This document shows positions 26,385 through 32,849 of a DNA stretch of 64,000 nucleotides, piece after piece. A program made the translations under genes and the position numbers. The notes below the pieces were generated by a model, which was not told where the DNA came from, made no database searches, and saw only the letters and a list, made by a program, of their open reading frames with translations. Origin of the DNA: Leptolyngbyaceae cyanobacterium JSC-12 (GTDB lineage: Bacteria; Cyanobacteriota; Cyanobacteriia; Leptolyngbyales; Leptolyngbyaceae); NCBI GenBank assembly GCA_000309945.1, contig CM001633.1, positions 2,204,292 to 2,268,291 on the forward strand, written 5' to 3'. Numbering within the stretch: the stretch's first letter is position 1; each line of letters begins with the position of its first letter.

Positions 26385-27548
26385 ATGCCAACGACTGTTA
26401 ATTCGCTTCCTGTTCTAAGTGTTGCACCCTCTCAAGTAGTTCGAGGACAAGGAATCTTAGCAGAAGCTATCGCGATGATCGCACAATTGGGACAGCGTCC
26501 GTTTGTGGTTGGCGGAGATACCACACTGCAGCGCGTCCAGTCCCAGTTTCAAGCTGCCTTTCAGCAGCACAACTTGCAATCAGTTCAAAGGTCATATTTG
26601 CCCGATTGCAGCGAAACCAGTTTGGCAACCCTACGTAAGGCTGTTCAGTCTCATCAAGCAGATGTGGTGATTGGGGTTGGGGGTGGCAAAGCCCTTGACA
26701 CTGCAAAGCTACTGTCCTATCAGTGTCAACTTCCCGTGGTTACCATTCCCACATCTGGTGCCACCTGTGCCGCCTGGACAGCGTTATCCAATGTTTATTC
26801 CAACGATGGGGCATTTTTGTATGATGTGCCCTTGTTACATTGTCCCAATTTGTTGATTCTGGATTACGACCTGGTCGCCACGGCTCCTCAACGAACGCTT
26901 GTTGCTGGGATTGGAGACGCGATCGCTAAGTGGTACGAAGCTTCGGTAAGTAGCGGACATACTCAACACACGTTAACGATTGCCGCTGTCCAACAAGCTA
27001 GAGTGTTGCGAGATATTCTATTTCAGAAATCAGTGGAAGCCTTGCAAAAGCCTGGTAGCAATACCTGGCAAGAAGTTGTTGATGCAACCGTTTTGTTGGC
27101 AGGTGTGATTGGGGGCTTGGGGGGTGCTCAATGTCGCACGGTCGCAGCCCATGCTGTTCATAATGGGTTGACCCATCTCCCTGCCAGTCATGGCACCCTG
27201 CATGGCGAGAAAGTTGCCTATGGCATTCTGGTACAGCTCCGTCTGGAAGAGTTAATTCAGGGAAACCAACTGGCTGCCACTGCTCGCCAACAACTTTTGA
27301 AGTTTTACGCCGAGATAGGGTTACCCTGTAGTCTGCATGATCTTGGACTTTCTCAGGTATCCCTTGCCGATCTGGAGCATGCTGCCGCGATCGCCTGCGC
27401 CGAAAAATCTGATATTCATTACCTTCCCTTTCCAGTTAACCCAACTCAACTATTGGCAGCGATGGTGTCAACTACAGCACCCTGCCAAAGTGTGAAACGC
27501 TGGGGAGAAGAAGGGATGGAACATCAAGAAAGCGAGGTGCAGGCATGA
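26385..27548 (+). CDS. Glycerol-dehydrogenase-like iron/zinc-containing polyol dehydrogenase
   Basis: The 387-residue protein belongs to the GldA-type metal-dependent alcohol dehydrogenase family. The nucleotide loop is GVGGGKALDTAK (97-108), and the metal ligands Asp178 (GIGDAIAK), His256 (AAHAVHNG) and His273 (LHGEKVAYG) are intact. The family oxidises polyols with NAD(P); the actual substrate here is not known. The gene overlaps the following aminotransferase gene by 4 bp (ATGA), a sign of translational coupling. That pairing suggests a shared pathway linking a keto/hydroxy compound and an amino acid, but none can be named. Confidence 0.85.
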   Translation: MPTTVNSLPVLSVAPSQVVRGQGILAEAIAMIAQLGQRPFVVGGDTTLQRVQSQFQAAFQQHNLQSVQRSYLPDCSETSLATLRKAVQSHQADVVIGVGGGKALDTAKLLSYQCQLPVVTIPTSGATCAAWTALSNVYSNDGAFLYDVPLLHCPNLLILDYDLVATAPQRTLVAGIGDAIAKWYEASVSSGHTQHTLTIAAVQQARVLRDILFQKSVEALQKPGSNTWQEVVDATVLLAGVIGGLGGAQCRTVAAHAVHNGLTHLPASHGTLHGEKVAYGILVQLRLEELIQGNQLAATARQQLLKFYAEIGLPCSLHDLGLSQVSLADLEHAAAIACAEKSDIHYLPFPVNPTQLLAAMVSTTAPCQSVKRWGEEGMEHQESEVQA

Positions 27549-28768
27549 GTTTGGACTGGATAACCCCGGCAGATCGATTAAAAACTTTGCCCCCTTACGT
27601 ATTTGCCCGATTAGATGAACTAAAGGCACGCGCAAAAGAGCAGGGGCTGGATCTAATTGATCTGGGCATGGGAAATCCAGATGGTGCCACTCCACAGCCG
27701 GTGGTAGATGCGGCGATCGCGGCTCTGCGAGATTCATCGAATCATGGTTACCCCCCTTTTGAAGGCACAGCAGGATTTCGCCAAGCCATTACCGAATGGT
27801 ACGAACGGCGCTACAACGTTAAGCTTGATCCAGACAGTGAAGCCCTGCCACTGTTGGGATCGAAAGAGGGGTTAACTCATCTGGCACTGGCATACGTGAA
27901 TCCAGGAGATGTGGTATTGGTCCCCAGCCCAGCTTATCCTGCTCACTTTCGCGGTCCCTTAATTGCTGGAGCGAACATCTACAGCATCATCCTGAAGCCG
28001 GAAGATGATTGGGTCATCAACCTCAAAACCATCCCAGATGAAGTAGCGGAACGGGCTAAGATTCTTTATTTCAATTACCCTAGCAACCCGACGGCCGCAA
28101 CCGCTCCCCGCCAATTTTTTGAGGAGATCGTAGCATTTGCGCGGCGCTTCAATATTTTGCTAGTGCATGATTTATGTTATGCCGAGCTGGCATTTGATGG
28201 GTATCAACCTACAAGCCTGCTAGAAATTCCGGGTGCAATCGATATCAGTGTCGAATTCCACACCATGTCCAAAACCTACAATATGGCAGGCTGGCGTGTT
28301 GGTTTTGTCGTGGGCAATCGGCATGTGGTGCAGGGCTTGCGAACACTCAAAACTAACTTGGATTATGGCATTTTTCGGGTGCTGCAAACGGCGGCTCAAA
28401 CAGCACTGCAACTCCCAGATGTGTATCTGCATGAAGTACAGGCACGCTATCGGACTCGTCGCGATTTCTTGATTCAGGGGTTAGCAGAATTGGGATGGAC
28501 TATCCCTAAAACCAGAGCCACGATGTATTTGTGGGTTCCTTGCCCACCCGGAGTTAGTTCCACAGATTTTGCTCTGTCTGTGCTGCAGCAAACAGGGGTT
28601 GTGGTCACGCCAGGAAATGCTTTTGGGGCAGGGGGAGAAGGCTATGTGCGCATTAGCCTAATCGCCGAGTGCGATCGCCTGGGAGAAGTGCTGCGCCGTT
28701 TGAAACAAGCAGGTATTACTTATGACTCAGGCGCTGAACTAGCAGCCAGTTTACAAGGAAAGAAATAA
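27545..28768 (+). CDS. PLP-dependent aminotransferase, LL-diaminopimelate/aspartate aminotransferase type
   Basis: The 407-residue protein is a fold-type I class I/II aminotransferase. PLP Lys243 lies in SKTYNMAGWR (242-251); Asp209 binds the pyridine nitrogen, and the N-terminal DLGMGNPDGATP (39-50) is typical of the DapL/AspC-like group. Annotation pipelines often call such proteins LL-diaminopimelate aminotransferase; in cyanobacteria a second, distinct DapL usually performs lysine synthesis, so a different amino-donor reaction is possible. Start and stop are clear. It is coupled to the upstream dehydrogenase by a 4-bp overlap and ends convergently with the rhomboid homologue. Confidence 0.88.
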   Translation: MSLDWITPADRLKTLPPYVFARLDELKARAKEQGLDLIDLGMGNPDGATPQPVVDAAIAALRDSSNHGYPPFEGTAGFRQAITEWYERRYNVKLDPDSEALPLLGSKEGLTHLALAYVNPGDVVLVPSPAYPAHFRGPLIAGANIYSIILKPEDDWVINLKTIPDEVAERAKILYFNYPSNPTAATAPRQFFEEIVAFARRFNILLVHDLCYAELAFDGYQPTSLLEIPGAIDISVEFHTMSKTYNMAGWRVGFVVGNRHVVQGLRTLKTNLDYGIFRVLQTAAQTALQLPDVYLHEVQARYRTRRDFLIQGLAELGWTIPKTRATMYLWVPCPPGVSSTDFALSVLQQTGVVVTPGNAFGAGGEGYVRISLIAECDRLGEVLRRLKQAGITYDSGAELAASLQGKK

Positions 28769-28771
28769 TAG

Positions 28772-29374
28772 TTACCAGAGCTGGCTAACTGGGAAAAGAG
28801 CCGCAATCCCATCTAGAAAGCGAGCAGCTAACACACCGCCCAGAAAGCTAATGAGGCGGGCTTTCCAGACAGAATCTCCGCTAATCGGCACCATTCCCCA
28901 CAGCATCCAGCTACACACACACCCCACAAGAATCGTGACCAAAATTGCCACGATCGCGGGTTCAAAATATCCCCGCAGCAGCAAAAAGCCTAAATAGCTA
29001 AATAAAATATTGCTGCTGCTAAAAAACCTGGCAGACTTGGGAAACAATAGCCCATTTAGACAATCCACCAGTAAAGCGATCAAGGTGACGATCACCAAGT
29101 CACGAGTTCCCCGTAGCAAAAGCAGGGTTCCCAAAAGTAAAAACATTTCGGCATTAGCAAACACTCGCTCAGTCCGATTAATGGAAGCTGAAACCGGAGG
29201 ACTCCAAAAACCTGGCAAGGTGCGAAAGGTGAAACCTATTTCATTGAGGTTTTTCCCTAAAGCCAGTGCGATCGCTAACGAAAATAGCCAGACATACACA
29301 ATGATGTCTGCGATTGTTTTGGCTTGTGTTGCGAAATCGTTAACTGTCACCGATGCTCCATAACCACTTGACAC
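28772..29374 (-). CDS. Degenerate rhomboid-family membrane protein (predicted inactive)
   Basis: The 200-residue protein has six predicted membrane helices and keeps family stretches of cyanobacterial rhomboids, including LLLRGTRDLVIVTL, LFSYLGFLLLRGYF and FLGGVLAARFL. The catalytic residues appear lost. The helix-4 Ser motif, GASG in active members, is SSSN. The helix-6 His motif, GHLFGFLGG in active members, is ARLISFLGG, so the His is replaced by Arg. The helix-2 His position holds Arg (TERVFANAE). The protein is therefore probably a pseudoprotease, comparable in principle to eukaryotic iRhoms, with a chaperone-like or degradation-linked role possible. The comparison is from memory of family sequences. 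Confidence 0.75.
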   Translation of the reverse strand: MSSGYGASVTVNDFATQAKTIADIIVYVWLFSLAIALALGKNLNEIGFTFRTLPGFWSPPVSASINRTERVFANAEMFLLLGTLLLLRGTRDLVIVTLIALLVDCLNGLLFPKSARFFSSSNILFSYLGFLLLRGYFEPAIVAILVTILVGCVCSWMLWGMVPISGDSVWKARLISFLGGVLAARFLDGIAALFPVSQLW

Positions 29375-29597: not shown

Positions 29598-30902
29598 ATG
29601 AACGTCGCAACTGATTTGGGGCTCATCCTAATGTTGATCGGGGTGAATGCCTTTTTTGCCGCCGCAGAAATTGCGCTTGTATCTGCGAATCCTGTACGCA
29701 TGAGAATGATGGCAGAGGAGGGAAATCGATCAGCACGGCGAGTGCTCGCTGCAATGGAAGATAGCACTCGGTTTCTAGCAACAGTTCAAATTGGGATTAC
29801 GCTGGCAGGCTTTTTCACCTCAGCAACGGCTGCGACAAATCTTTCTGCCCCAGTCACCGAAATGTTGGAACCCGTACTCAAAGAGGCGGCTGCATCGGTT
29901 TCACTGATTCTCATTACAACTGTCATCGCTTTTATCAGCTTAGTTTTGGGTGAATTGGTGCCTAAGCGTCTGGGACTTCGCAATGCTGAAGCGATCGCCC
30001 TTGCCTCAATCAATCCCATTCGCTGGTTAGGCAAAATCGCCGCCCCAATCGTCAAGTTCTTAAGCATCTGCACCAACATTATTTTGAGACTCACAGGCAA
30101 CCCGGTGATTGATACAGAAGAAAGCGTTAGCACTGAAGAAATTAAAGCGATGGTTGATTCCGCACGGGCAGGCGGATCGGTGGGCGAACAGGAACGTCGC
30201 ATCATTCACGGTGCAGTAGAACTGAGTAATGTCACCGCTCGTGCCATCATGGTGCCGCGGGTTCAAATTCAGTACTTAAAAACCACGACCTCTTTAGAAG
30301 AAGCCTATCAAGTTGCGGCGGAAAACGCCCACACCCGACTCCCTGTTTGCGAAGGCGATCTGGATCATATTGTTGGCATTCTGCATGTCAAAGACTTAAT
30401 TCGCCCGCTGCCAGAACTGAGAGAGCATCCCCCATCGATTGCCGAACTAGTGCGCCCAGTACATTCTGTACCCGAAACTAAGCCTGTTCACGACCTACTG
30501 GAAGAAATGAAAAAAAACCGCCTGCATCTGGTGATTGTGCGGGATGAATTTGGTGGCACTGCTGGATTAGTCACATTGGAAGACGTGCTGGAAGAAATTG
30601 TGGGGGAAATTCGAGATGAATACGACGCGGAAGAAGAGCGGGAATTTCGCCAAATTGGTGAACATGAGGGCATTTTCAAAATTCGCGCCAGCATCGCCAC
30701 GGTGAATAATGAACTGAATCTGGAGCTTCCCCGCGAAGATGCTGCCACCCTGGCTGGATTATTTCTAGAAGATTTGCAGCGTCCCCCTGAACCTGGCGAT
30801 CGCCTCCAGGTCAATGATGTGTTGCTTACCGTGTTGGAAGATGGACAGCGAGTGCGGGTGGCGGTGGTGCCAATGCCCACTACTGAATCAGACGATGATT
30901 AA
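29598..30902 (+). CDS. CNNM/CorC-type transporter-associated protein (hemolysin family)
   Basis: The 434-residue protein has the order DUF21 membrane domain (about 1-185, several helices), two CBS domains (about 205-335, with MVPRVQIQYL at the first and IVRDEFGGTAGLVTLEDVLE at the second) and a C-terminal CorC_HlyC domain (about 350-425). This is the CNNM/CorB/YtfL layout, implicated in divalent-cation (Mg2+ or Co2+) efflux or magnesium homeostasis; the old hemolysin name is misleading. The gene appears monocistronic, with a hairpin downstream. Confidence 0.92.
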   Translation: MNVATDLGLILMLIGVNAFFAAAEIALVSANPVRMRMMAEEGNRSARRVLAAMEDSTRFLATVQIGITLAGFFTSATAATNLSAPVTEMLEPVLKEAAASVSLILITTVIAFISLVLGELVPKRLGLRNAEAIALASINPIRWLGKIAAPIVKFLSICTNIILRLTGNPVIDTEESVSTEEIKAMVDSARAGGSVGEQERRIIHGAVELSNVTARAIMVPRVQIQYLKTTTSLEEAYQVAAENAHTRLPVCEGDLDHIVGILHVKDLIRPLPELREHPPSIAELVRPVHSVPETKPVHDLLEEMKKNRLHLVIVRDEFGGTAGLVTLEDVLEEIVGEIRDEYDAEEEREFRQIGEHEGIFKIRASIATVNNELNLELPREDAATLAGLFLEDLQRPPEPGDRLQVNDVLLTVLEDGQRVRVAVVPMPTTESDDD

Positions 30903-31047: not shown

Positions 31048-31632
31048 ATGTCTGGTGATTTTGAGAAAAACAGTCTAGATTGGCAACTTCATCTCTGGCA
31101 AATCCGCATTGCCGAATGGGTTGAGCGACTCTTTCAGTCTTCTAACAACAACCCAAGTCTGCCCAACTGGTCGTTTCCAGAATGGCTATTGCAGAGATTA
31201 TTCTGGGCGCTCGCCATCGCCCTAAGCCTGTGGGCACTGTGGCAACTTTATTCTATCCTGGCTCCTTATTTAGGAACCAGCATCCTGGCAAACAGCCAAC
31301 AGCCAACAGCCACAACTTCACACCCAGAAAGGCGAACCACCGCTGAGTGGCACCAGCGATCGCGATTGCTAGCGCAGCAAGGCAACTATCGAGAAGCATG
31401 TCGTGCTCTGTATCAAGCAACCTTGCAACATCTAGATATCGCAGGGCTGATTCCTGGAGAAGCCAGCCGCACCGATGGCGAATATCTTCGTCGGCTGCAA
31501 ACCCTGCCCAATCCTCACCCTTACCAGATTTTGATCCGCACCCATGAGCAGTTGTGCTTTAGCCATATGGAGGTGACTCAAGAAACCTTTGAACACTGTG
31601 AGCAGGCTTACCGGGAGATTGAGACCCTATGA
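31048..31632 (+). CDS. DUF4129 domain membrane protein
   Basis: The 194-residue protein has a cytoplasmic N-terminus, one membrane helix (about 52-75), a short Gln/Pro/Thr-rich linker with repeated CAGCCAA-type codons, and a C-terminal DUF4129 domain (about 100-190) rich in helices. DUF4129 proteins occur in operons with MoxR AAA ATPases and DUF58 proteins, but neither is present here. Its stop codon overlaps the start of the next gene, so the two are translationally coupled. Confidence 0.85.
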   Translation: MSGDFEKNSLDWQLHLWQIRIAEWVERLFQSSNNNPSLPNWSFPEWLLQRLFWALAIALSLWALWQLYSILAPYLGTSILANSQQPTATTSHPERRTTAEWHQRSRLLAQQGNYREACRALYQATLQHLDIAGLIPGEASRTDGEYLRRLQTLPNPHPYQILIRTHEQLCFSHMEVTQETFEHCEQAYREIETL

Positions 31633-32849
31633 TGCAGCTTTCTCGTCGCCAGACCATCATTCTCGCGATCGCCCTCGTATCTCTGATTCTGCTCATCCTA
31701 TTTCTCGCTCCCAGTAGTGGCAATGTGCAACAGTACGGTTCAACCTACAGCCGCATACCTCAGGGCTATGGTGCCTGGTATGCTTTCATGGAAAAACGCG
31801 GCACTTCCCTCCAGCGCTGGCGACGCCCCTTGAGTGATCTGTATAATGCACCCCCAGCCCAGCCAAATAACCAGAAATCCTCTGCTTCTATCCCCAAACC
31901 ACCGATCACGCTGATTCGGATCAGTGGTAGCAGCGATGTTCTGAAGCCTGATGATGAGTGGGTAAAGCAAGGCAATGTATTGGTGTTATTAGGCATGAAG
32001 CCGCGAGTAACTGATACCCCCTTTACCTCCGATCTGGACAGTCCTAATGGCAAAATCCGAATTGAAACCCGCCGTCGCCAGGTAATTACTGGGGGCAAAA
32101 CTAAGGCAGGCGGCAAGGAGACTGCCCTTTTGAGCGATCGCGCTGGAGCCGTAGTATGGCAAGAGACACTGGACAAGGGAAAGATCATCTACTCGTCAAC
32201 CCCCTACCTGGCAGCAAACGCTTACCAGGATCATCCTGCAAACTACGAATTTTTAGCAACATTGGTAACCGAACCTGGTTATCCCATCTGGGTTGATGAG
32301 TTTATGCATGGGCACGAAGACAAAGTCGCTAAAGTAGGTGACACTAAAACCGAAGACGACTTGATCACGTATCTATTTAGAACACCACTATCCTTGCTAG
32401 CACTGCAAAGCGTCATTATTCTGGCAGTACTGATATGGGGACAGAATCGCCGTTTTGGCACTGCAGAGCCACTAGTGTCCCCAGTTATAGACAACAGTGA
32501 AGCTTACATCCAGGCAATGGCAGGAGTGCTTCACAAAGCCAACTGTAGCGAGTTTGTGCTGGAAACTATCGGTAAAGCAGAACAACTCGAAATTCAAAAA
32601 GCACTTGGATTAGGAACAGTTCCCCTATCTCTGGAAGTATTGGCAGAAGCCTGGGAACAGCAAACGGGGCGATCGCCCGAAACCTTGCAATCCATGCTAA
32701 GAACCACTTCCCGCCATCGTCGCCTTACCCATGCAGAACTGCAACAGTGGATTGTCAACATTCAGGTAGTCAGACAAACACTTCCCTATCCTCCTTACCG
32801 CCCCAGCCCCAACTCCTTTCCTGATTCCCATTCATTTTGCCTGTACTAA
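31629..32849 (+). CDS. DUF4350 domain protein
   Basis: The 406-residue protein has an N-terminal membrane segment (about 8-27), a DUF4350 domain (about 38-215) with the typical opening YGSTYSRIPQGYGAWYAF, and a second membrane helix near 260-275 followed by a cytoplasmic C-terminal region. DUF4350 proteins resemble the glutamine-amidotransferase fold and usually sit with DUF4129, MoxR and DUF58 genes. ATG 31629 overlaps the previous stop by 4 bp; a second ATG follows directly, at 31632. The function is unknown. Confidence 0.85.
   Translation: MMQLSRRQTIILAIALVSLILLILFLAPSSGNVQQYGSTYSRIPQGYGAWYAFMEKRGTSLQRWRRPLSDLYNAPPAQPNNQKSSASIPKPPITLIRISGSSDVLKPDDEWVKQGNVLVLLGMKPRVTDTPFTSDLDSPNGKIRIETRRRQVITGGKTKAGGKETALLSDRAGAVVWQETLDKGKIIYSSTPYLAANAYQDHPANYEFLATLVTEPGYPIWVDEFMHGHEDKVAKVGDTKTEDDLITYLFRTPLSLLALQSVIILAVLIWGQNRRFGTAEPLVSPVIDNSEAYIQAMAGVLHKANCSEFVLETIGKAEQLEIQKALGLGTVPLSLEVLAEAWEQQTGRSPETLQSMLRTTSRHRRLTHAELQQWIVNIQVVRQTLPYPPYRPSPNSFPDSHSFCLY

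Follow-up and report, generated by a model that had tools for sequence, protein, structure and literature searches.

The window analysed here is a stretch of 64,000 nucleotides from the genome of Leptolyngbyaceae cyanobacterium JSC-12. In the ORF listing of this window, a minus-strand frame at 28772-29374 comprises 200 codons, i.e., 200 amino acids when counted from a GTG. It encodes a homologue of rhomboid proteases with an altered catalytic site, hereafter the pseudo-rhomboid, located between an aminotransferase gene and the gene of a CNNM-type transporter. The features of the locus are as follows.

27545..28768, plus strand: aminotransferase class I/II gene (Pfam PF00155), convergent with the pseudo-rhomboid gene, the two stop codons being 3 bases apart; same arrangement in G002.
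28772..29350, minus strand: coding sequence of the pseudo-rhomboid, 192 amino acids from a conserved GTG start, with six predicted membrane helices; the start matches the alignments of orthologues from 7 other genomes.
28772..28792, minus strand: clade-specific C-terminal tail P-V-S-Q-L-W-stop, in which P, S and the final W are invariant in 8/8 members.
28856..28858, minus strand: codon CGC for Arg165, which stands in place of the catalytic His (GlpG H254); six orthologues have CAT here.
29012..29014, minus strand: codon AGC for Ser113, which occupies the nucleophile column (GlpG S201) within the SSSN that replaces GASG; AAC in the sister genome.
29153..29179, minus strand: loop-1/helix-2 region, which reads HGxxxHLxxN in active relatives; N58 and N66 lie here and both His are absent.
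29351..29374, minus strand: eight codons that may extend the N-terminus if translation begins at the upstream GTG; the orthologues do not conserve them.
29598..30902, plus strand: gene of a transporter with CNNM, CBS and CorC_HlyC domains (Pfam PF01595, PF00571 and PF03471), divergent from the pseudo-rhomboid gene; the two genes are also adjacent in G002 and G011, but in no other member.

Of the two GTG codons, the one at 29350, located 8 codons after that at 29374, is more probably the conserved start. The alignments with the orthologues start at this codon, the L011/L047 orthologue lacks any start codon further upstream, and the GTG at 29374 is not conserved, being replaced by GCA in the sister genome. 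The choice between the two is not fully settled because a GGAG, similar to a ribosome-binding site, precedes each GTG. No Rfam match was obtained around the gene.

A preliminary description had taken this frame for a rhomboid that had lost all its catalytic residues. The frame proved to be a real gene and a rhomboid homologue. Indeed, the encoded protein was aligned with two active-type rhomboid paralogues of its own genome at E values of 3e-22 and 2e-20, a likeness far beyond chance (“active” designating here a catalytic site that is complete in sequence). Besides, the profile of its clade matched that of the active-type cyanobacterial rhomboids with an hhalign probability of 99.9% over 185 columns. 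The comparison with the Pfam Rhomboid model (PF01694), suggested in the preliminary description as a check, gave no match to the window copy, while two of the eight clade members were matched (best E 3.2e-5). Against all Pfam, the Derlin model included, the window copy matched no family even at E 10, and neither NCBIfam nor Pfam names this protein. An AlphaFold2 model contained six helices at low confidence (mean pLDDT 55). Used as a Foldseek query, this low-confidence model returned GlpG at the top (probability up to 0.99, best E 0.14, none below 0.1), followed by iRhom1 and iRhom2. From homology, a six-helix rhomboid fold is very likely. Searching solved structures with sequence profiles led to weak and implausible matches only, and the profile of the active family found none at E ≤ 0.001. 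Hence, the GlpG numbers used in this work are a correspondence of motifs, not the product of a computed alignment with GlpG.

The pseudo-rhomboids share whole-length homology, at 29-38% identity, with cyanobacterial GlpG-type rhomboid proteases (PF01694, MEROPS S54) such as those encoded at G000:C1:603067-603603 and 4666967-4667317. Both groups have the same single-domain architecture, with six helices predicted in the clade, and a common core made of W, Y-L-G-F-L, W-G-x-x-P and G-G. In contrast to these proteases, the clade lacks the Ser-His dyad, the GxSG motif and the His pair of loop 1, and possesses a loop 1, a WK motif and a C-terminal tail of its own. Elsewhere in the genome of the window, four canonical PF01694 rhomboids are encoded, two of which belong to the same cyanobacterial subfamily as the pseudo-rhomboid. 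Besides the two paralogues named above, two further canonical rhomboids of this genome are located at G000:C1 371885-372322 and 2527185-2527661 (L002 and L001); the pseudo-rhomboid profile misses both, which are too dissimilar, and one of them lies within a 532-codon open frame.

Among 36 related cyanobacterial rhomboids, from this and other genomes, the equivalents of H145, H150, N154, G199, S201, H254 and G257 were invariant (36/36), and at the G202 equivalent 34 of them have G and 2 have S. Two otherwise intact rhomboids, L019 (G029) and L024 (G003), carry GASS in place of GASG. All 36 retained the complete Ser-His dyad, whereas none of the eight members of the pseudo-rhomboid clade did. 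In the window copy, the HIGASG of the related rhomboids is replaced by FFSSSN, and GxSG is thus destroyed, while W[EQ]GHL is replaced by WKARL, the catalytic His being Arg165. On these two motifs the preliminary description read the sequence correctly. Its broader claim, that every catalytic residue is gone, holds for the dyad, broken by Arg165, and for the His pair of loop 1, but Ser113 still occupies the column of the GlpG S201 nucleophile and N66, the equivalent of GlpG N154, is kept. An intact GxSG or His elsewhere in the alignment, which would have contradicted the description, was not found.

The lesions extend to the whole clade without being identical. At the nucleophile position, the seven orthologues carry N, D, K, N, N, N and H, and Ser in no case; this variability (S, N, D, K, N, N, N, H with the window copy) contrasts with the near-invariance of the adjacent helices. 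At the catalytic His position, six orthologues have His, so that this residue was lost only in the window copy (Arg) and in G013 (Tyr). Both His of the loop-1/helix-2 motif HxxxxHxxxN are absent from 7/8 members, G019 keeping one of them, and the N is kept in 6/8. The glycines of GxSG are replaced in nearly all members, most of which carry S, R or N at the G199 position. Ser113 of the window copy looks secondary rather than ancestral, because N, D, K or H stands at the nucleophile position of the seven orthologues and the AAC codon of the sister genome is a single transition away from AGC. As judged from residues and codons, on which the order of the losses and of the regain is based, the simplest reading would be that Ser disappeared from the clade before its members diverged and that a chance change restored a Ser in the window copy, which for its part lost the His. 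Rhomboid-type proteolysis by the window protein appears very unlikely.

The profile search delineated eight members, i.e., the window genome, G001, G002, G011, G013, G015, G019 and G028, among which are Leptolyngbyaceae cyanobacterium C42_A2020_001, Leptolyngbya sp. ULC077bin1 and Pantanalinema sp. GBBB05. They represent 8 of the 42 genomes of the order of the window, and none was found outside this order in samples of 390 genomes of the class and 386 of the phylum. In the 390 class genomes, members of the clade scored 265-345 bits and all other proteins 124 bits or less; the 386 phylum genomes yielded no further member at E ≤ 1e-36. A search of genome contigs with the single protein gave no match, and one with the alignment recovered six orthologues. 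Scanning viral contigs with the alignment of active rhomboids gave one locus. In the phylogenetic tree, the eight inactive proteins are monophyletic (support 99/93) and apart from all active-type proteins, G013 being on a long branch. Since long branches meet where the clade joins L028/L029, as warned by the program, the nearest active relative of the clade is unsettled. Several residues that active relatives rarely or never have are fixed or nearly so in the clade (P46, P51, P52, D96, C97, K163, S168, P187, S189 and W192). They accompany three clade-specific motifs, namely LPG-x-W-S-P-P in loop 1, an invariant WK preceding the old His and the tail P-x-S-x-x-W. Such conserved residues are expected if the clade acquired a new role. 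The pseudo-rhomboid clade is vertically retained and restricted to a small group of filamentous cyanobacteria.

The loss of the catalytic site, the patchy presence (8/42 genomes of the order) and a surplus of changes on the window branch could indicate a gene in decay, whose function is gone and whose reading frame is not yet broken. Concerning this surplus, Tajima-type counts at conserved sites (window:sister) were 13:4, 11:3, 13:3 and 7:1 for four of the six outgroups (nominal chi-square 4.5-6.3), and 9:8 and 10:4 for the remaining ones; with the former four, the excess changes include the His. However, all eight clade genes are full length and free of stops, and the clade-specific residues are conserved down to the final residue of the protein. 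In one-ratio codon models, the overall omega (dN/dS) was 0.099-0.105. The window branch had an omega of 0.04 with its own ratio and of 0.05 when the sister branch was freed too, these branch values being rough as synonymous sites are near saturation. An omega of 1 on the window branch was rejected (2 delta lnL = 42), and neutral drift of the gene is excluded. The identity to the sister genome is 86% for the pseudo-rhomboid, vs. 87% for one active paralogue, which is equally diverged, and 93% for another, which is less so. Decay is therefore very improbable given the intact frames, the low omega and the conserved residues, and this reading is close to refuted. The gene is under purifying selection, and we hold with high confidence that it encodes a bacterial pseudo-rhomboid kept by selection. 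The candidate status proposed at the outset is thereby strengthened, with the dyad absent from 8/8 members, a single supported clade and an omega far below 1. The possibility that the window gene was simply a decayed copy of a gene still active in close relatives was likewise not upheld, as no orthologue there has the active site.

Regarding function, the reading that we rather favor from the sequence comparisons is that of a selected, lineage-restricted bacterial pseudo-rhomboid working as a non-cutting membrane scaffold or client-binding adaptor. Without proteolysis, the pseudo-rhomboid would serve as a membrane-embedded scaffold, in which the six-helix rhomboid body, binding transmembrane helices and distorting the bilayer, would hold client membrane proteins. 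New contacts would be made through the clade-specific surfaces, i.e., the LPG-x-W-S-P-P of loop 1, the invariant WK and the P-x-S-x-x-W tail. The most likely outcome would be the presentation of clients to another protease. Alternatively, the protein could protect the substrates of the four canonical rhomboids of the genome, or compete for them.

The first of these outcomes has a precedent in YqgP of Bacillus subtilis, a bacterial rhomboid for which a role independent of proteolysis has been demonstrated, its protease-dead variant S288A still presenting a magnesium transporter to FtsH (PMC7231995). The role of the clade is inferred. YqgP itself is proteolytically active and carries an additional N-terminal domain, whereas the dyad is missing from every orthologue of the clade, as is any additional domain. 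This difference weighs against an adaptor built on the YqgP model, since the adaptor role of YqgP requires an unoccupied active-site cavity and the N-terminal domain (PMC7231995), while the window protein has no such domain and the clade carries bulkier residues at the G199 and S201 positions. In eukaryotes, Derlins and iRhoms take part in the quality control and trafficking of membrane proteins (PMC12615303). Like the clade, for which the rhomboid fold is very likely, Derlins (Der1, Dfm1) and iRhoms are rhomboid-fold pseudoproteases kept by selection without the catalytic dyad. They differ from it in being eukaryotic and in having extra parts, such as the large iRhom homology domain (PMC12615303). 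About 192 amino acids leave no room for the iRhom features, i.e., a large luminal iRhom homology domain and a cytoplasmic N-terminal domain. The clade most likely arose from bacterial rhomboids independently of Derlins and iRhoms. Somewhat doubtful is the proposal of a Derlin-like adaptor that would recognize membrane proteins and deliver them to FtsH or another processive protease; the division into proteases and pseudoproteases known from eukaryotes would then have arisen independently in cyanobacteria as well.

Instead, the dead paralogue could act as a regulator, pairing with the active rhomboids of the same genome or competing for their substrates. The four canonical rhomboids of the genome, two of them from the same subfamily, are consistent with this, as is the presence of active rhomboids in the genomes that carry the dead form. 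A regulatory function has been suggested for inactive rhomboids of plants (PMC1560137). Indeed, rhomboid-like proteins of Arabidopsis and rice were predicted to be inactive from the loss of essential residues (PMC1560137); the clade shares this predicted inactivity, these plant proteins being likened to it by residue loss only. However, many relatives of the family have active rhomboids without a pseudo-rhomboid, which is therefore unneeded for a general control of the active enzymes, and no genetic linkage to any active rhomboid was seen. Regulation is thus rather unlikely. The chances that the protein would be a client-binding adaptor rather than a regulator of its paralogues seem about even, and in our judgment the adaptor is the most likely function, followed by the regulation of active paralogues.

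The pseudo-rhomboid might also be the dedicated partner of the adjacent CNNM-type transporter, a relation that would resemble that of YqgP to MgtE, the magnesium transporter on which it acts (PMC7231995). Both genes are divergent neighbors in the window, with 248 bases from start to start, and are adjacent in G002 and G011. In G002 the whole neighborhood is identical in arrangement, and G011 keeps the transporter neighbor. However, no close homologue of the transporter was found at E ≤ 1e-120 in G001, G015, G019 and G028, all of which have the pseudo-rhomboid, and G015 and G019 are 99% complete. Moreover, the two genes are on different contigs in G013, and 12 genomes carry the CNNM gene without the pseudo-rhomboid. 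A consistent partnership was consequently rejected as a rule by co-occurrence (four clade genomes without the transporter, twelve non-clade genomes with it), and a dedicated one is highly improbable. Finally, a residual or altered catalysis, involving Ser113 and another base in the window copy or the His of six orthologues and another nucleophile, is scarcely credible, as nothing of the kind is common to the clade, the Ser position varies freely (S/N/D/K/H), and in nearly all members the GxSG glycines are replaced and the His145/His150 equivalents absent.

In the literature reached, pseudo-rhomboids are eukaryotic (iRhoms, Derlins and plant proteins), and a bacterial pseudoprotease function belongs to the otherwise active YqgP (PMC7231995). 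Our search for bacterial pseudo-rhomboids yielded YqgP only, as a functional precedent, and older mentions of inactive prokaryotic rhomboids may exist. The clade represents a variant of a known superfamily, maintained by selection and confined to one lineage, with a function deduced from the comparisons above. With the dyad missing from every known member and active paralogues in the same cell, it constitutes a small test system for the rhomboid fold without proteolysis. It also offers a way to test how pseudoproteases arise.

Downstream of the CNNM gene, the window contains DUF4129 and DUF4350 genes (31048-32849), a block also found 3′ of the CNNM gene in the relative L071. G015 keeps these DUF4129 and DUF4350 neighbors; there, the block is followed by a MoxR-like ATPase and adjoins the pseudo-rhomboid without the CNNM gene. 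In G028, the aminotransferase gene is about 1.6 kb from the pseudo-rhomboid. In genomes devoid of pseudo-rhomboid, the clade profile detected no rhomboid of either kind beside the CNNM gene, so that emergence of the pseudo-rhomboid in situ from an active gene is unsupported. In one of these genomes, G014 (L068 2780-3020), the aminotransferase and CNNM genes directly adjoin each other. This arrangement is an apparent empty site, compatible with either the ancestral state or a loss, and is useful for dating the gain or loss of the pseudo-rhomboid.
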